From positions 1 through 31,501 of the IMG/VR virus record IMGVR_UViG_3300010885_010253: a stretch of DNA of 31,501 nt, one strand, 5' to 3'. Positions 5,968 to 25,012 of the stretch are shown here, one piece after another. Under the pieces are notes generated by a model. That model made no database searches. It was not told the DNA's origin and saw nothing but the letters and a program-made list of their open reading frames with translations. The stretch's first letter is position 1, and every line of letters begins with the position of its first letter. A program made the position numbers and the translations under genes. Origin of the DNA: a virus.

Positions 5968-7758
5968 ATGGCATTATCGATAGAACAAGTTGCAGCGCGG
6001 GTCGAGAACCTTCGCTTCCGCAACGCTGAACGTGACGGTCGTAACCTTGACGTTCTTGCAGTTCGTAAGGGTCATATTGCATCTGTCTACCCTGACTTCT
6101 TTCCAGACGGAGTAGACGCTAACGTAGTTGCCAACTTTATCGACATTGTCGCACGCGACTTGTCAGAAGTTATGGCTCCGCTTCCTGCGGTTAACTGCTC
6201 AGCGGCTAACTCTGTTTCAGATAAAGCACGTGGCTTCGCTGACAAGCGCACACGTATTGCATCAAACTACTTTTCACATGCAGACCTTGCTGTACAGATG
6301 TACCAAGGTGCTGACTGGTATCTAACCTACGGTTTCCTCCCATTCTTTATTGAATTGGATGAGGAAGCAAAGTTGCCGCGCATCCGCCTAGAAAACCCAC
6401 TGGGTGCTTACCCAGAATTTGACCGCTACGGACGCTGCATTGCCTTTGCAAAACGCTACATGACTTCTTTGGCAGAGTTAGTTTCATTATTCCCAGAGTA
6501 CGAATACTCCTTGTTAGGTGGCTTTGGCTACAAGCAGGATTTAAATACTCAAGTTGAAATGATTCGTTACTACGACAAAGACCAATCAATCATCTACATC
6601 CCTACAAAGAATAATCTAGTCCTTTCACAGGCTAGTAATCCATTGGGCAAGATGATGGTTGTAGTAGCCCGTAAGCCATCTATTGATGATGAACTTCGTG
6701 GACAGTTTGACGACATCCTTGGTATTCAATTACTGCGTAACCGCTTTGCGTTACTTGCAATGGAAGCAGCAGAGAAGTCAGTACAGGCACCTATCGTACT
6801 TCCACAGGATGTACAGGAGTTGCAACTTGGTGGAGATGCGGTTATCCGTACTTCTAACCCAGCAGGTGTACGTCGTGTAGAACTTAACATCCCAGCAGGC
6901 GCATTTACAGAACAGAACTTGCTCAACGCAGAACTACGTGTGGGTGCTCGTTATCCTGAATCACGTACTGGCAATATCAACGCATCAGTTGTTACAGGAC
7001 AAGGCGTACAGGCTCTTATGGGAGCCTTTGATACACAGGTTAAATCTGCGCAAGCAATTTTTGCATCTGCACTACGCGATGTTATTAGCGTATGCTTTGA
7101 AGTAGATGAAAGAATCTTCCCATCAGAAAAGACAATTCGTGGTGTAGATTCAGGTTCACCTTATGAGATTACATACTCACCTAAGAAAGATATTAAGGCC
7201 GACTACTCAGCCGATGTCCGTTATGGAATGCTTGCTGGTCTTAACCCAGCACAGGGACTTATCTTTATGCTACAAGCACTTGGTGGTGGATTAATCTCCA
7301 AGGATATGGCAATGCGTGAACTTCCATTCACAGTTAACGTATCTCAAGAACTAGAAAAAATTGAAATTGAAAAGATGCGCGATGCGCTTCTTGGTTCTCT
7401 TACTGCATACACACAAGCAATTCCACAAATGGCTACAAGTGGTGGAGACCCAAGTGTTATCGTTAGAAAGATTGCCGATGTTATCAAGGCACGCCAAAAG
7501 GGACAGGCACTTGAAGATGCAATTGAATCGACCTTTGCTCCAGAGCAACAAGTTCCTCCTGCTGGGGTTCCATCGGTTGAGCAACCGTCCCCTGTTCCCC
7601 CTGGTTCTCCAGTAGGAGGCTCTCCAGAAGGCGCACCTGCGCCAGAAGGAATGCCACAAGGAGCACCTGCAGCACCACCAAGTATCCAAAGTTTACTCTC
7701 TGGCCTATCTGGCGGAGGAACACCAACAGCATCAGTAAGAACAGTAACGCGTAGATAG
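5968..7758 (+). CDS. Portal protein
   Basis: A 596-residue protein directly after the terminase, the normal place for a portal. It has the usual mixed alpha/beta portal make-up: an N-terminal helical stretch, a middle clip/wing region with ADWYLTYGFLPFFIELDEEA and LENPLGAYPEFDRYGR, and a long helical C-terminal part. A Pro/Gly-rich tail (about 525-580) ends in basic residues (VRTVTRR). It should form the dodecameric ring through which DNA enters and leaves and to which the adaptor and giant ejection protein attach. The identification rests on position, size and general resemblance to podovirus-like portals. Confidence 0.85.
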   Translation: MALSIEQVAARVENLRFRNAERDGRNLDVLAVRKGHIASVYPDFFPDGVDANVVANFIDIVARDLSEVMAPLPAVNCSAANSVSDKARGFADKRTRIASNYFSHADLAVQMYQGADWYLTYGFLPFFIELDEEAKLPRIRLENPLGAYPEFDRYGRCIAFAKRYMTSLAELVSLFPEYEYSLLGGFGYKQDLNTQVEMIRYYDKDQSIIYIPTKNNLVLSQASNPLGKMMVVVARKPSIDDELRGQFDDILGIQLLRNRFALLAMEAAEKSVQAPIVLPQDVQELQLGGDAVIRTSNPAGVRRVELNIPAGAFTEQNLLNAELRVGARYPESRTGNINASVVTGQGVQALMGAFDTQVKSAQAIFASALRDVISVCFEVDERIFPSEKTIRGVDSGSPYEITYSPKKDIKADYSADVRYGMLAGLNPAQGLIFMLQALGGGLISKDMAMRELPFTVNVSQELEKIEIEKMRDALLGSLTAYTQAIPQMATSGGDPSVIVRKIADVIKARQKGQALEDAIESTFAPEQQVPPAGVPSVEQPSPVPPGSPVGGSPEGAPAPEGMPQGAPAAPPSIQSLLSGLSGGGTPTASVRTVTRR

Positions 7759-7773
7759 CGAAAGTAGGGGACA

Positions 7774-8319
7774 ATGACAACAATAATTGGCGTGCAATTA
7801 GAGCACGGATGCATAGTTGTCAGCGATAGTAGAATCGCAGCAAGTGGTAAAGTATATACCCACCCTGATATGGTAAAAGCCGTACAGCGTGGTAATTATG
7901 TTATTGCAGGTGCTGGTGACTATCGTGCTTTGCAGATTGTATTACATGGATGGACACCTCCAGCACTTACAATTAAAGCAAAAGAAAATCTTTATGAGTT
8001 TATGATTAACAAAGTAGTGCCAATGTTAAAGACAACACTTACTACTGCTGGTATAGAACTCAATAAATCATCAGATGACTCAAGTAATAAGTTTGAGTTA
8101 AGTCTTTTGATAGCAGTTAATGGGACTATTTTTGAAATTGATTCTGACTTTGCAGTAGGAATGAATAGCACAGGATTTTATGGCATCGGCTCAGGTGGTG
8201 ACTACGCAGTAGGAGCACTACATGCTGGAGCAAGTACATTAGATGCAATGCGAATTGCAGCAATTAATAATAACGAGACGGCTCCGCCGTTTCATATTCT
8301 TGAACAAGAAACTAAGTAG
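7774..8319 (+). CDS. Proteasome/HslV-like Ntn hydrolase, candidate head-maturation protease
   Basis: A 181-residue protein starting MTTIIGVQLEHG. After Met removal Thr1 is the predicted nucleophile. Asp17 lies in VVSDSR, exactly where proteasome beta subunits and HslV have it, and Lys34 is within one residue of the usual Lys33. AGAGDYRAL and YGIGSGGDYAVGAL match the family's later motifs, the second carrying the conserved Ser-Gly-Gly. There is no propeptide. Its place between portal and head genes, and the lack of any other recognisable prohead protease in the window, suggest it trims scaffold or internal virion proteins. Alternatively it could be a non-structural protease or act on host proteins. 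No HslU-like or proteasomal ATPase is seen. Confidence 0.82.
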   Translation: MTTIIGVQLEHGCIVVSDSRIAASGKVYTHPDMVKAVQRGNYVIAGAGDYRALQIVLHGWTPPALTIKAKENLYEFMINKVVPMLKTTLTTAGIELNKSSDDSSNKFELSLLIAVNGTIFEIDSDFAVGMNSTGFYGIGSGGDYAVGALHAGASTLDAMRIAAINNNETAPPFHILEQETK

Positions 8320-8327
8320 GAGGAATA

Positions 8328-8807
8328 ATGGTCAGTGGAGGAATGCGCCCAAATGCGCCACAAAACAATCCTGCCAATATCAACCCACTTGGTGGCAACG
8401 GTCAGAGCGGTAAAGGGACACAGGCTGCTAAGTACATTCCTGGCATGAAAAGCCTAGGCTCAACAGGAGTTGCAACTATGGCACAGCAAGAAGGTGCGCC
8501 ATTGGCTGGCTCAACACCTACACCAAAGGCTGCACCGCCAAGAGTAGCGTCAGCCATGCCTATGGCAGAAGTGCGTCCTTTGAGCGCACCATCAGACTTC
8601 CCAGATGAAAACATCACAACAGGTGCAGCAATTGGCGATACGCCAGGGCCAGAATCACTTATGATGCCTCAGCAAGAGCCAGTTGTCAACGACCCTGATT
8701 TAAATTTAGTACGTGAATATTTTCCAGTCATAGAATTATGGGCATCTCAAGTAGACACCTCACAGGGTACTAAGGATTATGTAAATTACCTTAGGACCAT
8801 TCTATGA
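8328..8807 (+). CDS. Low-complexity protein with conserved-looking C-terminus, 159 aa
   Basis: Family not recognised. The first two thirds are rich in Pro, Ala, Gly, Asn and Met with little predicted structure. The last 35 residues (DPDLNLVREYFPVIELWASQ onward) look folded and helical. An excellent AGGAGG lies five bases before the ATG, and the stop overlaps the next start (ATGA), so translation is coupled to the giant protein. Its place after the protease and before the ejection protein suggests a minor head or scaffold-like component and a possible protease substrate. Confidence 0.7.
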   Translation: MVSGGMRPNAPQNNPANINPLGGNGQSGKGTQAAKYIPGMKSLGSTGVATMAQQEGAPLAGSTPTPKAAPPRVASAMPMAEVRPLSAPSDFPDENITTGAAIGDTPGPESLMMPQQEPVVNDPDLNLVREYFPVIELWASQVDTSQGTKDYVNYLRTIL

Positions 8808-11800
8808 GTTTATGGGATTACATTGGTAATATCCAGAAGGACATGGGAAACAACATCAAGACAGATGCTGTCCCAGCAAAAAATGGCCGCGTTCCTTTTG
8901 GTGTAAGCCTAGACACTGCAAAAGCAGTTCCAGCAAAGACTGGTAATACTGTTGTGCAAGCACGTTTTGCTCCAACTCGTAAGATTGCAAACGAAGATGT
9001 TGAAAAAGCACGTGTTGCCGCAATTAAAAGTGTCACTTGGGCTACAGAAATGGCTTTAAAGTACACTCCACTTGCAGTGATTCCTAAAATTGACGAAGCA
9101 ACTAAGGGTGGACTATCAAAAGCACTAATGGCTGGTGCAAAGAATGTGCGTTCTAACTATGCACTTATTCGCGCAGCAGGAGATGACGACGCAGCAAAGG
9201 GAATGCTTTCAGGACTTAACTTAATTGTTGGTGGATTAGGTGGAGCAATTACTGGTGCAGCATTAGGAGCACCAGCAGCAGGTGTAGGTGCCATTCCTGG
9301 AGCAATTGCTGGATTTGTAACTGGCGTTGCTGTTGCTGGAGCAGGGACACGTTCTATTGCTAAGAATGAAACTTTTGGCAAAGAATTAAAGCAAAAAGCA
9401 ATCTACGCTGAATCTGCAGTTGGACAAGAACATTATAACTTTGGTAGAGATGTAACGAATCAACTAGCGCGTATTAAGGGATTTAAAACACTTGGCGATA
9501 CTAATATGGGTATTGGCGCAGTTACATCAGGCCTACTTAATTTTGGTTTTGAAGTTGGGTTTGACCCACTCTTAAAAGGAACCAGCGTCGGTGGCAAGGC
9601 CGTAAAAGGCGCACTTGTTGGTGGAGTAACACCAAAAAGTCAAGGTTTAGTTGCTGATGCAATCGGTCGAGCAACTGGTCTTCGCTCTCTTGAATTAGCA
9701 GATAAACTTGATATTGACATTGATACTATCAAGAAGACCGCTGCTGGTGAAACAACAATTTACACTCCTTTATTTGAATTTTTAAAGAACAACGATTCTG
9801 CTACAATTCGCAATCACCCAACACTAAAGAACAATGATATGGGAGATGTTGCAGCATCAGTACTCGCTGGCAAATCAAATGAAGAAATTGGATTAATTTT
9901 ACGTATTGGTCGCGGTGACAAGAGCGCAATTGATGAACTTGAAGCCAATCTTAACTATGCAGATACTTATGCTGAGTTAAATCGCTACGAATCAGGCATT
10001 ACTGCTCTTGAAGAAGATGGAATGATATGGTTCCGTCATAACAATGAATTAATGATGGTTGGCAAGAAGTACCAAGATGGTTCAGAACTTATAAAGGCAG
10101 AACTCGAAGTACTTCGTAAGAAAAAAGACTTCGTTGAAAGAGCCATCAGCCTTGATTCTTGGTTGCAGACAGATAGAACTGTCTCCCAATTTGCATGGGT
10201 CGAGCGCATGCGTGCTGATAAGGCTGTACGTGGCGCTGCTACAAAAATATCTGGTAAAAAATACAATAATGAACTAATTGATGGCATCCGCCAGGAAACA
10301 GAATTTGGTGATATTATCACATCTGTTTATAAGAACAATCTATTTTCTACACCAATTAGTTTTGTAAGTCGTCTTATTGATGATGCTCCACATGCTACGG
10401 TTAACTTTAATGAAGGAGTTCAATCTGTTACTCGCGTACGCACAAGTTTGCGCGATGCAGTAACTCGTAATATAATTGACGTAAAACAAGCATCACAGAT
10501 TCTTAATGACTTTATCTCTGCACCAAATGAAGGTGTAAAGAATGATATTATTGAAAAATATGCAGAAACAGTAATTCGTAATGCTGCTATTAACTATGGA
10601 CATCACGAAGATATTGCAGAACTTGCAATTAATACTTATATCAAGAACCATCGCCTAACTAAAAAAGAAGCAATGCAGGCGAAGGAACAAAATCGTGCAT
10701 ATATGGTCGGTAAAGATGGCAATGCTATGGTTGACCCACAGTTAATTACACAACTTGCTAATGGTGCATATCTTCCAGATATTGAAATTATTGATAAATC
10801 GTTTAAAGAGTTTGGGACACGTCCTGGTTCTATCACTAAGGCTGGGCGTTCAACTCTATATGGTATAAAGACAGCACTTGATGAACTACAGGCTATCTGG
10901 CGTGGTGGAACATTAGCACGTGGTGGTTTTACAGCCAATATTCTTCGTGATGCTAATTTCCGTGCATGGGCAGATACTTCAATGTTCTCCCTGTACTCAC
11001 AGTTAGGTACAAGCACTCTAGATTCTGTTACTAATGGACTTAACACAGTTAAGAAGATTTCTTCTTGGGAGAAAGACATCATTAGTCCTAAGCGCAATAT
11101 GCGAAACATTCGCGAGGCTATTGATGAGAATGATAAAGTTTTAAAGAAATTAGAAGGAAGACTAGAGCAAGAAGGTTTCTACAAGAAGCCTAAGAAGGGT
11201 GCAAAACCCGTAGAGGTTACACCAACACTTCAACGTGTTATTGAATCTCGAGACGCAATTGCAGCCACACTAGCAGAACTTCGTCGCCAAGAGAAGGCTA
11301 TTGTTGACAATATCCCAACTCAAGTAATTAAGAAGGACAAGATTAGTGTATCTGGTTGGGAATTCCCAGCAGCACGCTCTGGTCAACTTGGTGAGATTAG
11401 TCGCCAGAAATTAAACGGTAAAGAAGAGATTCGTGGTGCGCTGGCATCTGTTCGTGAACTAGAAATGGAATCTGTACGCCGTGGAAGTTATGGCGGTAAG
11501 GTTTACCATGCTGTAGATAACGAAGCAGAACATCTTGTAGCATGGACTGATATGCTCAATAACCACTTGCGCAATGACCCTCTTGCGGTTGAAATCATGA
11601 AGGGCGATTTAGGTAAGCCAGAATTAATGAACTGGCTACAAGAGAATGCTCAGCGTTCTTATATTGACCGCTTTGGTCTAACCGTAGTTGAAGAGGGTAA
11701 GCCTGCACGTAGACTACGTCGCAGTGATGCAGAATACATTTATGACCGTGTTAATTTTGCCGTAAATAGCATTGCTTCAAATGAGCAAGTTCGCAAACTA

Positions 11801-13681
11801 GTCCTCAATAATCAGTTAACAGCAATCGAGTTAAAGAAACTATATCCTGTGGTCGCAGAACGCCCACCAGTATCTGGAGATGTTACAACTAACGCACTTG
11901 GTGGCGGTAACCTGGCACGTCGAGTAGTCAATCTACAAAAAGATGTAGTACAGTATCTTGCAACACAGCCAACTTCTAAACTCAACTATAACCATTACTT
12001 TGCCGCTAAATACTACGAGAAGTTAGAAACTCTAGTAATGAATGCCAACGAACGTGGCGTTATTCCTGGCGCAAAGCAGAAGGTCCAGTACGAGAAGATT
12101 GCTCGTTCCTATGCAATCAATGAGTATCGCAGTAAGATTAACGCGTTCTCAAAGGATATGAACTTTGCTGGATTAATGAACTATGTTATAGCCTTCTTCC
12201 CTGCGGTTGTAGAACAGTTCAGAGCATATGGGCGTATTATGATAGACAACCCAGAGTTGCCTATCCGCCTTGCTTATGCAGCCCAGATTCCAGAGTATAT
12301 CGCAGATACACAAGAAGATGCTTATGGTAATAGGTATATTGAATATACTATGCCATATACAGGACTAAAAGCACGCTTCGGAGTTGAATGGTTTAATCCA
12401 ATTAACCCAACTTCTGGTTCTATCCTATCTGCTGGTCCGCTAACAACAACTCTTTCTAACCTTGTTGCCAAGCAGACAGAGTTTGCTGATACTAAACTAG
12501 GTGCTTTCTTGCTACCATTTGGCGTGTCAACTAACGCTATGTCTGCTTACACTCCTAATACATGGAGAAAAGCATCTGAAATGTACAACGCCTGGAAGGG
12601 TGATGGAGAGCAGTTTAATAAAGATGTAAATATGATTTCAAAACAATACTTATTTGATTTTATTGAAGATAATGATAGACAGCCTAATCCATCTGAATTA
12701 AACCAGATACAGATTCGTGGAGAAAAAGATGCACTAGCAATGTCTGTATTAAAGTTTGTATCATCATTGACGCTGCCACAGCAGCCAAAGATGCGTACAG
12801 CAATATCGTACTATCAGGATAGATTTAGTGAAGCAATTAAACTGGACCCAATCAATGGTTCAGAAAACTTCATGAAAGATAATCCTGATTACTTTATGCT
12901 TGCTGATAAACTAACAAATAATATATCTGGAGTTAATTCAGATGAAACAGCAGTTAATTTATTAAAGCGTAATAACTTTGCAACAAGAGAAATAGTTACT
13001 AATGTTACAGACCTTACCGCATTAGGTGCAGTTTTTAACGATGATAACTATGCATTCTCTAGCGCAGCAGATGCTTATCTTCGCACACAGAAGATTCCTG
13101 GTCTAGATAGCAAGTACAAGGCTAGCGAAGCGTCGCTTCTTAATATGAAATCAACTGTTGTCAACAAAGGTTGGACCGATTGGTTTAAGTTAATTCAAGT
13201 GGTTTCAACAGAAATGAGAAAACCACCGTACAACCTTGACCCTGCACGTGGTTATGGCGCAGATGTCTTAAAGCAGTATAAAGATTCTTATATTGAACAA
13301 CAGAAGATTCAAAATCCTATGTGGTATGATATAAAAGTAAACAGCGCAGGTGGCGGAGATAAAGGCCCAATGGCTAGCGTTATCAAGGCTGTCACTATTG
13401 CTGCCAATACACCTAGTATGTGGAAAGACATATCTCAGCAACCGCGTTGGTCTGCTATTGTTGAATACATGAACTTCCGATATGAAATTAACGATGAGTT
13501 AACACGCAAAGATATCGGATACGATAGCAAGGCTGCAATTAGCGTACGCAATAAAGTCACACTCAAGGTGTGGGAACTACGTAATAAAGACGTAAAGTTC
13601 GGTCAGTTCTACGACAGATATTTTGACGGAGATGACTTTAGTTTTATATTTGATTATGAACCACCAAAGAGGAGTAAGTAA
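8804..13681 (+). CDS. Giant internal virion / DNA-ejection protein candidate, 1625 aa
   Basis: The longest gene in the window. Residues about 132-182 form a glycine-zipper-like hydrophobic segment (GLNLIVGGLGGAITGAAL and what follows) that could insert in membranes. A Lys/Glu-rich coiled coil lies near 765-845. Around 1124-1170 is a helical hydrophobic stretch beginning MNYVIAFFPAVVEQF. The rest looks mostly helical with scattered basic patches. Family knowledge: podoviruses carry very large internal proteins that are ejected ahead of the DNA and build a channel across the envelope. Size, glycine zipper and position in the structural operon fit. I searched by eye for T7/N4-like RNA polymerase motifs (DxxGR, HDS) and for lytic transglycosylase or peptidase motifs and found none convincing. 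It overlaps both neighbours. Confidence 0.75.
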   Translation: MSLWDYIGNIQKDMGNNIKTDAVPAKNGRVPFGVSLDTAKAVPAKTGNTVVQARFAPTRKIANEDVEKARVAAIKSVTWATEMALKYTPLAVIPKIDEATKGGLSKALMAGAKNVRSNYALIRAAGDDDAAKGMLSGLNLIVGGLGGAITGAALGAPAAGVGAIPGAIAGFVTGVAVAGAGTRSIAKNETFGKELKQKAIYAESAVGQEHYNFGRDVTNQLARIKGFKTLGDTNMGIGAVTSGLLNFGFEVGFDPLLKGTSVGGKAVKGALVGGVTPKSQGLVADAIGRATGLRSLELADKLDIDIDTIKKTAAGETTIYTPLFEFLKNNDSATIRNHPTLKNNDMGDVAASVLAGKSNEEIGLILRIGRGDKSAIDELEANLNYADTYAELNRYESGITALEEDGMIWFRHNNELMMVGKKYQDGSELIKAELEVLRKKKDFVERAISLDSWLQTDRTVSQFAWVERMRADKAVRGAATKISGKKYNNELIDGIRQETEFGDIITSVYKNNLFSTPISFVSRLIDDAPHATVNFNEGVQSVTRVRTSLRDAVTRNIIDVKQASQILNDFISAPNEGVKNDIIEKYAETVIRNAAINYGHHEDIAELAINTYIKNHRLTKKEAMQAKEQNRAYMVGKDGNAMVDPQLITQLANGAYLPDIEIIDKSFKEFGTRPGSITKAGRSTLYGIKTALDELQAIWRGGTLARGGFTANILRDANFRAWADTSMFSLYSQLGTSTLDSVTNGLNTVKKISSWEKDIISPKRNMRNIREAIDENDKVLKKLEGRLEQEGFYKKPKKGAKPVEVTPTLQRVIESRDAIAATLAELRRQEKAIVDNIPTQVIKKDKISVSGWEFPAARSGQLGEISRQKLNGKEEIRGALASVRELEMESVRRGSYGGKVYHAVDNEAEHLVAWTDMLNNHLRNDPLAVEIMKGDLGKPELMNWLQENAQRSYIDRFGLTVVEEGKPARRLRRSDAEYIYDRVNFAVNSIASNEQVRKLVLNNQLTAIELKKLYPVVAERPPVSGDVTTNALGGGNLARRVVNLQKDVVQYLATQPTSKLNYNHYFAAKYYEKLETLVMNANERGVIPGAKQKVQYEKIARSYAINEYRSKINAFSKDMNFAGLMNYVIAFFPAVVEQFRAYGRIMIDNPELPIRLAYAAQIPEYIADTQEDAYGNRYIEYTMPYTGLKARFGVEWFNPINPTSGSILSAGPLTTTLSNLVAKQTEFADTKLGAFLLPFGVSTNAMSAYTPNTWRKASEMYNAWKGDGEQFNKDVNMISKQYLFDFIEDNDRQPNPSELNQIQIRGEKDALAMSVLKFVSSLTLPQQPKMRTAISYYQDRFSEAIKLDPINGSENFMKDNPDYFMLADKLTNNISGVNSDETAVNLLKRNNFATREIVTNVTDLTALGAVFNDDNYAFSSAADAYLRTQKIPGLDSKYKASEASLLNMKSTVVNKGWTDWFKLIQVVSTEMRKPPYNLDPARGYGADVLKQYKDSYIEQQKIQNPMWYDIKVNSAGGGDKGPMASVIKAVTIAANTPSMWKDISQQPRWSAIVEYMNFRYEINDELTRKDIGYDSKAAISVRNKVTLKVWELRNKDVKFGQFYDRYFDGDDFSFIFDYEPPKRSK

Positions 13682-18623: not shown

Positions 18624-19826
18624 ATGGCAAACGCATATACAGATACGTCGAGCACATCATTCGGCGGTACAGTAGGCGGCGCTGGTCTCGTACAGAAGGC
18701 ATATGACCGCCTTCTCGAGTTCGCTCTCCGTTCAGAACCCCTAATTCGTTCTGTCGCAGATAAGCGCCCAGCAAAGCAAGCAATCCCAGGTTCAACTGTA
18801 GTTCTACAGAAGTACGTTGACCTAGATGTTAAGACATCAACACTAACAGAGACAGTTGACCCAGATGCAGTAGCATTGTCAACACCAACCTCTGTAACAG
18901 TAACACTTAACGAGTACGGTAACGCTGTACTTGTAACACGCGCATTGGAACTATTCTCTCTAGCAGATGTAGACCCAGCAATCGCAAACATCATTGCTTA
19001 CAACTTAGCCGATTCTATCGACTCAGTTGCAATGACAACTCTACGCTCAGGTTCAAATGTTATCTACGGTGGGGCTCGCACATCAGTTGCAACACTTACA
19101 GCAACTGATACACTTGACTCAGCAGACATCCGCAAGGCTGTTGCTAAGTTGCGTTCCAACAAGGCTAAGGGCCGTCGCGGCAATGCATACTGGGTTGGTA
19201 TCCACCCAGAAGTTTCACACGACCTTCGTGCAGAAACAGGCGACCTTGGTTGGCGCTACCCACAGTCACAGTCTGCTTCTGAATCAAGCAAGATTTGGGC
19301 TGGAGAAATTGGTGAGTACGAAGGCGCATTCTTCGTAGAGTCATCACGTTTGTACAATGCTAAGTCAGGTGCAGACCAGACAGCATTAGCAACAACAACA
19401 GCAACAGTTGCAGGAACATCAGCAGGATTTACTCTTGGTGTTGCAGCATCATCTGTTATCGGACTTCGCGCCGAAGTTGGCGATAAGATTTCTGGAACAG
19501 GAATTGCAACAGGTGCAAAGATTACTGCAATCTCAACATCAGGTGCAACAGAGACAATCACTGTAGATACTGCTCACACAGCAGCAGTTACAGTGGGTGC
19601 AACAATCACAGTAACTCCAGTAACACGTGTCTTTGACACAATCGCATGCGGTTCACAAGCAATGGCAGAAGCCGTAGCAGAAGAACCACACGTAGTTATT
19701 GGTAACGTAACTGATAAGTTAATGCGTTTCCGCCCAATGGGTTGGTACGGCGTACTTGGCTTTGCAGTCTACCGCGATGAGGCACTATACCGCATCTCAA
19801 CAGGTTCATCAATCACTGCTCTCTAG
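18624..19826 (+). CDS. Major capsid protein, N4-gp56 type, with inserted beta domain
   Basis: A 400-residue HK97-fold candidate. The start (MANAYTDTSSTSFGG), the early VQKAYDRLLEFALRSEPLIRS helix, KRPAKQAIPGSTVVL, and WVGIHPEVSHDLRAETG followed by GEIGEYEGAFFVESSR (229-242) match the N4-gp56 capsid family pattern. Residues about 250-334 are rich in Ala, Thr, Ser, Val and Gly (VGDKISGTGIATGAKITAIS) and look like an extra beta domain. The family sequence then resumes at RVFDTIACGSQAMAEAV. AAGGAG precedes the ATG. It forms the icosahedral shell. Confidence 0.92.
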   Translation: MANAYTDTSSTSFGGTVGGAGLVQKAYDRLLEFALRSEPLIRSVADKRPAKQAIPGSTVVLQKYVDLDVKTSTLTETVDPDAVALSTPTSVTVTLNEYGNAVLVTRALELFSLADVDPAIANIIAYNLADSIDSVAMTTLRSGSNVIYGGARTSVATLTATDTLDSADIRKAVAKLRSNKAKGRRGNAYWVGIHPEVSHDLRAETGDLGWRYPQSQSASESSKIWAGEIGEYEGAFFVESSRLYNAKSGADQTALATTTATVAGTSAGFTLGVAASSVIGLRAEVGDKISGTGIATGAKITAISTSGATETITVDTAHTAAVTVGATITVTPVTRVFDTIACGSQAMAEAVAEEPHVVIGNVTDKLMRFRPMGWYGVLGFAVYRDEALYRISTGSSITAL

Positions 19827-22831: not shown

Positions 22832-25012
22832 ATGACAACTAGAAAATACTCCTCACGCTCTCAGCAATCAACGCTGACAGGTACAGTAACCTCAGGTGCT
22901 ACCACGATGGCAGTCATCTCTGGTACGTCGCTACTTGGTGGTGTAACAATCCCTGCTGGTACAACCTTTACGATTGTTATCGACCCAGATACGGCAATCG
23001 AAGAAATTGTAGATGCCACGGCGGTATCAACCAATACCTTTAATATTACTCGAGCCATTGATGGCTCATCAGCACAGGAACATACAGCAGGAGCAGTAGT
23101 TCGTCACATGGCTATTGGCCGTGACTACCGTGAGGCAAACACTCACATCGAGTCTACCACTGGCGTACACGGTGCTACAGGGGCTGTAGTAGGTACTACA
23201 GATACTCAGACCCTGACCAATAAGACACTGACTTCCCCTACGATTACTAACCCTAGCATCTCGGGTGCTGGTGTAGATGCAAGCATCGTCTTTGAAGGAG
23301 CAACTGCTGATGCTTATGAAACTACTCTTACAGTAGTTGACCCTACACAGGACAATACAATCACAATGCCTAATACAACAGGCACAGTGGTGATTGCTAC
23401 AGCAGTCCAGACTCTTACAAACAAGACTTTAACCAGCCCGACTATCTCAGGCTCACCAGTTATTACTGGTCTATCTTCTGCAGGTATGTCTGCCTCATCT
23501 GCTACTCCTAAAGATTACGTAGATAGCATTCTAGGCTCAGCAACTGCAGCATCTACGTCTGCTGCTAGTGCAGCAACTAGTGCTACATCTGCTGCAACAA
23601 GCGCTACAAGCGCAGCAGCCAGTGCAACGGCAGCAGCGGCATCTGCCGTCACAGCAGGAAGTTCAGCAACAGCAGCAGCAACTTCTGCTACCTCAGCAGC
23701 AGCCTCTGCCACAGCAGCAGCAACTAGTGCATCAAGTGCGGCAACAAGTGCCACAGCAGCGGCTACATCAGCCACATCTGCTGCAGCCAGTGCGACAACT
23801 GCTGCTGCTTCTGTAGCAACAATTGCAGGGTATGCAACTACTGCATCTAACTCAGCAAGTGCAGCAGCCACAAGCGCCTCAAGCGCATCAACATCTGCTG
23901 CATCTGCATTAACTTCTGCAAACTCTGCTGCTACTAGCGCTTCTACTATGGGTACAAGCGTTACGGCTGCAGCGACAAGTGCTGCTAGTGCAGCGACAAG
24001 CGCAACGGCTGCAGCAACTTCGGCTGCATCTGCAGCAACGTCTGCATCTGCTGCTTCGACATCAGCAAGTAGCGCATCAACAAGTGCAAGTTCAGCATTG
24101 ACAAGTGCAAACAGTGCAAGTACAAGTGCTGCCTCGGCAGGCACATCGGCTACTGCATCTGCTACATCAGCAAGTGCATCTGCGACATCCGCAACTGCAG
24201 CAGCGACTAGCGCCTCGTCTGCCGCTACATCGGCATCTTCTGCTGCAACGACATACGATGATTTTGATGACCGATATCTTGGTAGCAAGTCAACTGCTCC
24301 TACAGTAGACAATGATGGCAACACACTTCTTGTAGGTGCTATTTATTGGAACTCAACTCTTAACAATATGTATGTATGGTCAGGTTCTGCATGGGTGCAG
24401 ATTGCTACAACTAGCGTTTACACGGCACCTACACTTGGCTCGACCACCATTAACTCTGGCGCAACAGTATCCAATGTTAATGCTTTAACTATTAACTCAA
24501 CAACCATACCAACATCTAAGACTTTAGTAGTAACTACAGATAAACTGTCTGCCCTTGCTGCTACTACATCTACTGAACTTGCTGGTGTTATCTCAGATGA
24601 AACAGGTACAGGAGCATTAGTATTTGCTACATCACCAACATTGGTTACACCCGTACTTGGCGTTGCAACGGCAACATCTATTAACTCAACAACAATTCCT
24701 TCATCTAAGACTCTAGTAGCCACAGACTCAACTGTTTATGTAGTCCCTTCTCAGACTGGAAACTCAGGCAAGTTCTTAACAACAGATGGCACTGCATCGT
24801 CTTGGGGTACTGTTGCTAGTTATTCAGCCCCAACTATTGGCTCAACATCTATTCCTTCAGGTACTACAGTAACAACTATTGCTGGTTTAACTTTAACAGC
24901 ACCAACATTAACTGGAACAGTAACTGCATCAGGAGATATTAACCTGTCTGCAACAAATGGACCAGGAAGTTTAATTGACGAACTAGCCCTCATTATGATG
25001 GGCGCCCTCTAA
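22832..25012 (+). CDS. Tail fibre with Ala/Ser/Thr repeat shaft, 726 aa
   Basis: N-terminal ~110 residues are beta-rich and end YREANTHIE, like fibre attachment domains. The motif QTLTNKTLTSPTI then occurs twice (about 128 and 190), as in many phage fibres. Residues about 236-473 are nearly pure Ala, Ser and Thr with seven-residue regularity (SAATSAT-like), a probable trimeric shaft as in lambda Stf-type side fibres. A beta-rich C-terminal head (VDNDGNTLLVGAIYWNSTLN, VWSGSAWVQIATT and more) probably binds the host surface. The 5' gene is the adaptor and the 3' genes also encode receptor-region proteins. Confidence 0.85.
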   Translation: MTTRKYSSRSQQSTLTGTVTSGATTMAVISGTSLLGGVTIPAGTTFTIVIDPDTAIEEIVDATAVSTNTFNITRAIDGSSAQEHTAGAVVRHMAIGRDYREANTHIESTTGVHGATGAVVGTTDTQTLTNKTLTSPTITNPSISGAGVDASIVFEGATADAYETTLTVVDPTQDNTITMPNTTGTVVIATAVQTLTNKTLTSPTISGSPVITGLSSAGMSASSATPKDYVDSILGSATAASTSAASAATSATSAATSATSAAASATAAAASAVTAGSSATAAATSATSAAASATAAATSASSAATSATAAATSATSAAASATTAAASVATIAGYATTASNSASAAATSASSASTSAASALTSANSAATSASTMGTSVTAAATSAASAATSATAAATSAASAATSASAASTSASSASTSASSALTSANSASTSAASAGTSATASATSASASATSATAAATSASSAATSASSAATTYDDFDDRYLGSKSTAPTVDNDGNTLLVGAIYWNSTLNNMYVWSGSAWVQIATTSVYTAPTLGSTTINSGATVSNVNALTINSTTIPTSKTLVVTTDKLSALAATTSTELAGVISDETGTGALVFATSPTLVTPVLGVATATSINSTTIPSSKTLVATDSTVYVVPSQTGNSGKFLTTDGTASSWGTVASYSAPTIGSTSIPSGTTVTTIAGLTLTAPTLTGTVTASGDINLSATNGPGSLIDELALIMMGAL
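23537..24251 (+). repeat. Ala/Ser/Thr repeat region of the tail fibre
   Basis: About 238 codons drawn almost only from GCA/GCT/GCC, AGT/AGC/TCA/TCT and ACA/ACT. Repeat units are short and imperfect (GCAACAAGTGC-like). Long open frames on both strands here are by-products of this composition. The length is likely to vary between relatives. Confidence 0.85.

Follow-up and report, generated by a model that had tools for sequence, protein, structure and literature searches.

A predicted proteasome-like N-terminal-threonine hydrolase gene in an exchange slot beside the portal gene of a phage lineage

Homologues of the proteasome are scattered through phages without known function. Phage members of this group are already known, either as PHROG 1040 or as the PPH and AAH homologues of phages and bacteria, for which neither a function nor an informative context has been reported, and none of the AAH found was specific to actinophages (Fuchs et al. 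2021, PMC8665760). The PHROG 1040 phages (Phapecoctavirus, Pitbull, Pumpernickel, DSL-LC01 and VpV262) encode proteins of the same family as the one treated here, with Thr1, Asp17 and the lysine and no propeptide, and in the records inspected the gene lies among non-structural genes. In the case of bacteria, HslV/ClpQ shares with the phage protein the same fold, a compact size and a Met-Thr-Thr start, whereas it is served by an HslU-type ATPase that has no counterpart in the phage contigs described below. The closest structural match is the betaproteobacterial proteasome homologue (BPH; PDB 5ovs/5ovt/5ovu), with about 20-23% identity. BPH is the product of a bacterial chromosome gene and its tetradecamer has been shown, whereas the phage protein is known from its sequence and a monomer model. 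An acidic pore loop has been described in BPH, which has no reported partner unfoldase, is proposed to work without a dedicated one, and was inactive on peptides and casein (PMC5777263).

The stretch of DNA analysed here (the window, 31,501 nucleotides) comes from a freshwater phage and contains, between the portal gene and a gene of unassigned function termed p159, a complete open reading frame that spans exactly positions 7774-8319, with an ATG start, 181 codons and the N-terminus MTTIIGVQ (Table 1). This frame starts 15 nt after the portal stop, which leaves no room for a propeptide, and ends 8 nt before the p159 gene. A profile search matched the protein to PHROG 1040 ('peptidase HslV family') with an E-value of 4e-24, and the solved structures matched by its sequence were those of BPH and HslV. 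The only families recovered were of the HslV/proteasome kind, with none of the S14, S49, S78 or U9 prohead proteases among them. The Pfam Proteasome model gave an E-value of 0.007 for the window protein, under the cut-off, and passed it for one relative (L114), whereas the curated HslV models scored the window protein at 20.7-22.2 bits against cut-offs of 137-158, which places it outside HslV as these models define it. As judged from its sequence and predicted fold, the gene product is a proteasome-like N-terminal-threonine hydrolase (hereafter Ntn) of PHROG 1040, that is, a group I proteasome homologue. It has this group in common with the phage PPH and AAH, and at 181 residues it differs in length from PPH, which has ~140 (PMC8665760).

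Table 1. Features of the head-gene region of the window (positions in the window; residue numbers in brackets count the initiator Met)
Feature	Position	Strand	Basis or remark
Portal protein gene, upstream border of the slot	5968..7758	+	phrog_104, E 9e-29
Ribosome-binding-site-like GTAGGGG before the Ntn ATG	7764..7770	+	Junction display; also present where the gene has given way to a divergent Ntn version
Ntn peptidase gene, 181 aa, HslV/BPH-like (predicted)	7774..8319	+	ORF, PHROG 1040, conservation, model, structure matches
Catalytic Thr1 codon (residue 2, T2 before Met removal)	7777..7779	+	Invariant, 166/166
Asp17 codon (residue 18, D18)	7825..7827	+	Invariant, 166/166
Lys34 codon (residue 35, K35; proteasome Lys33)	7876..7878	+	165/166; Asn in L017
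Gly47 codon (residue 48, G48), oxyanion-hole glycine	7915..7917	+	Invariant, 166/166
Acidic loop following the long helix (residues 92-108), at the site of the pore loop in BPH	8047..8097	+	Sequence, model
GSGG motif (residues 139-142)	8188..8199	+	G139 and G141 invariant; S140 in 155/162, otherwise T
p159 gene (phrog_8200, function not assigned), downstream border of the slot	8328..8807	+	Profile match, locus comparison
Scaffold-like gene, 156 aa	18122..18592	+	Weak match to head scaffolding PHROGs and DUF4355; position before the MCP gene
Major capsid protein (MCP) gene, N4-gp56 family, short N-arm	18624..19826	+	TIGR04387, 106.6 bits (cut-off 60); N-termini

Conservation was followed in 166 distinct Ntn sequences from the head slot, down to about 28% identity with that of the window. 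Thr1, Asp17, Lys34 (Lys37 in BPH numbering) and the SGG lie where a preliminary description of this DNA, made from the sequence alone, had placed them, and their persistence through so many distinct relatives is not a matter of chance. The equivalent of Asp166 varies (N, D or S), Ser/Thr169 is usually retained, and the median dN/dS within the Ntn type of the window is about 0.13. Because the active-site residues are kept across relatives only about 28% identical, the window Ntn is probably an active N-terminal-threonine peptidase. The inactivity of BPH on peptides and casein means that catalysis by the phage protein is not assured, and makes a narrow substrate range plausible. In a single relative (L017:10001-10546), the catalytic Lys34 is replaced by Asn and the rest is intact, either a natural variant or a sequencing error.

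An AlphaFold2 model of Ntn, with 30 relatives in the alignment, reached a pLDDT of 91.3 and a pTM of 0.87. Its top PDB match was BPH (Foldseek E 1.4e-10; Z 18.7, 2.4 Å over 163 residues), followed by HslV and then by the proteasome beta subunit. As in BPH, there is an elongated acidic loop, which sits in the model between H73-91 and E109-115 and is rich in D and E both in the window and in the counterparts from relatives. A family scan of the window detected no AAA domain, and a search for AAA_2 (HslU/ClpX type), which matched in 14 control genomes, gave nothing in the window and 23 related contigs. The earlier suggestion of a protease acting without an unfoldase therefore stands with regard to phage-encoded ones, and the identification of a proteasome-like Ntn hydrolase, without propeptide and right after the portal, was likewise supported by the family match, the conserved active site, the BPH/HslV fold, the 15-nt junction and the location of the gene throughout its clade.

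Regarding this location, the order terL-portal-Ntn-p159 was found in 80 out of the 80 nearest IMG/VR loci and in podovirus ct2KA10, where the contig reaches. The set was widened to 357 loci with p159, the portal, a second Ntn type and an alternative slot gene (p90) as queries; the relatives are mostly fragmentary metagenomic contigs, and counts are based on distinct portal/slot combinations, as several loci cover overlapping parts of the same contig. Among 216 such combinations, the slot is occupied by Ntn of several types in 174, by p90 in 38 and by neither in 4, all Streptomyces phages. Within the clade, Ntn was never observed outside the head operon and, where present, always maps between portal and p159. 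Mapped on the portal tree, the type of slot content requires at least 22 changes, where shuffling of the labels gave 136 on average, and is therefore inherited but repeatedly swapped. In five loci (L088, L093-L095 and L097), the portals are 93-95% identical to that of the window and the scaffolds, where the contig reaches, 89-91%, with only 27-28% identity in Ntn. The junction of this swap is the start codon itself, and the ribosome-binding site is kept. Portal distances correlate much more closely with those of terL (0.81) and scaffold (0.82) than with those of Ntn (0.49 for all loci, 0.66 in the scaffold subset), the partial correlation between Ntn and scaffold given the portal being -0.14. 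These comparisons of sequences indicate that the portal-p159 position is an exchange slot.

The alternative occupant, p90, is a protein of ~80-90 residues unrelated to Ntn (L107:6527-6799 and about 85 related loci), with a basic N-terminus, a conserved WLNEYY...SYPxWV core and an acidic C-terminus. No PHROGs, Pfam or NCBIfam family matched it, nor did anything in isolated phages, and its structure model was poor (pLDDT 67). Ntn and p90 never share the slot in the 357 loci; 16 p90 contigs of up to 41.6 kb contain no Ntn, and p90 is absent from ct2KA10 and from 28 Ntn contigs that are long or nearly complete, with one exception of 79,356 bases (G029, locus L043), where both genes lie about 40 kb apart, that is, one genome length, and which appears to combine two related phage genomes through misassembly. 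In more distant members, p90 is found downstream of the capsid gene, and only about 235 nt separate portal from p159. The two proteins need not be functionally equal, because recombination in the flanking genes alone would make the slot contents mutually exclusive.

A head-maturation protease was the function put forward in the preliminary description. In such a scenario, the ring would cleave scaffold, p159 or an internal protein within the prohead or next to it and take over from the usual prohead protease, which would fit the conserved active site and the fact that all clade members with Ntn encode it in the head operon, downstream of the portal. The accompanying statement that no standard prohead protease occurs elsewhere in the window was confirmed by scans of its main ORFs, none of which is of the S14, S49, S78 or U9 type, a result that holds for the 31.5-kb contig, near-complete relatives having 38-41 kb; this absence of another protease would also favour a head role. 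However, phages with p90 instead of Ntn keep the same scaffold (57-68% identity to that of the window) and the same MCP of 398-401 residues (77-80% identity), with the same short N-arm, which leaves no room for a delta-type pro-domain. The Streptomyces podoviruses of the Beephvirinae (Immanuel3, Manuel, Dennebes and Abafar), whose portal and MCP are about 43% and 50% identical to those of the window and whose gene order is shared, contain no Ntn in their complete genomes and show small ORFs in the slot. Moreover, Ntn versions are swapped without concomitant changes in scaffold, MCP or p159, whose identity at matched portal identity is no higher in same-slot than in different-slot pairs, the groups of high portal identity being small. 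The distant relatives with Ntn outside the head cluster are VpV262, Pumpernickel, Arthrobacter phage Pitbull and Actinomycetia phage DSL-LC01, and the last two have separate capsid maturation proteases, as annotated in the deposited records; relatives of this kind, with the gene in non-structural places and another prohead protease, had been named at the outset as evidence against a head role. The literature search found no paper linking an Ntn hydrolase with a prohead protease. Altogether, sequence comparison indicates that the head machinery of this lineage can do without Ntn, and a head-maturation protease, be its substrate scaffold, p159 or an internal protein, appears unlikely. A variant in which a virion or prohead protein is processed by an ATP-independent ring whose gene accompanies that of the portal, and p90 lets sister phages dispense with the ring, for instance by recruiting a host protease, seems more doubtful still, although, if true, the portal-linked ring and its p90 alternative would represent a previously unknown route of head maturation.

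On the other hand, Ntn could be packaged via or beside the portal together with large internal proteins and be injected to act early in the next infection. Podoviruses such as P22 keep their ejection protein genes at a comparable position, and Ntn is encoded between the portal and the genes for p159 and a protein of 1625 residues (p1625); VpV262 also encodes a similarly sized 'internal virion protein'. However, a closed double ring would make a bulky cargo, and p1625 diverges or disappears without effect on the Ntn gene; such ejection is improbable. A connectase-like protein ligase, or another non-proteolytic Ntn enzyme, is very hard to credit: the connectase is indeed a ligase among proteasome homologues (PMC8665760), but the best structure matches are BPH and HslV. 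The connectase-like ligase was rejected on the model, which lacks the two-helix S3/S4 insertion and has a short loop from E26-29 to E36-39.

The most likely explanation, held with reasonable though limited confidence, is that Ntn is an active, ATP-independent peptidase of the HslV/BPH type, an exchangeable late accessory enzyme with targets other than scaffold or capsid, most likely host proteins. Ntn would be made from the late operon, where its gene lies between those of the portal and p159, and removal of the initiator Met would expose Thr1, assisted by Lys34 and Asp17. By homology with BPH and HslV, the subunits would form a closed double ring, whose acidic pore loop may admit only unfolded substrates or certain short ones. 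Whole Ntn versions, or the unrelated gene of ~90 codons, are exchanged at this position through recombination within portal and p159 on either side. The accessory character is deduced from the position in an exchange slot, and the host-directed function by exclusion; with neither scaffold nor capsid protein as target, defence or turnover factors of the host would be the likeliest ones. A point against an accessory enzyme is the confinement of the clade Ntn to the head operon, as a head role also predicts.

What is new with respect to the phage homologues already described is a slot next to the portal that is constant in place but variable in content, the strict conservation of the active site across swapped versions, and the existence of natural pairs with and without the gene. 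In a large clade (hundreds of IMG/VR contigs), the active site is strictly kept while the gene is exchanged as a cassette at one constant position. Naturally occurring pairs that differ in the presence of Ntn share their head proteins, which offers a clean natural experiment on the purpose of a phage proteasome homologue and speaks against head maturation, the function one would guess first.

Some other observations concern the relatives and the rest of the window. A plasmid search recovered only distant rhizobial homologues (24-28% identity over 65% of the query), and a portal search of genome contigs a single unrelated match in Sphingobacteriales (25% over 155 residues). An actinobacterial host is suggested by one line of evidence, the Streptomyces phages among the relatives. 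In Vibrio podovirus VpV262, the HslV-family peptidase gene (L368:20743-21303) is located just outside the structural gene block. The window MCP is about 80 residues longer than those of the Streptomyces relatives, with an apparent inserted domain. The p1625 protein (8804-13681), probably an internal or ejection protein, ranges among relatives from 94% to about 20% identity or is unrecognisable, its neighbours being conserved. The tail fibre protein (22832-25012) contains a long Ala/Ser/Thr repeat stretch, and a gene on the opposite strand (347-1588) belongs to the amidoligase family, passing the cut-off of Pfam Amidoligase_2, and encodes an N-terminus with Cys-rich motifs that resemble zinc fingers.
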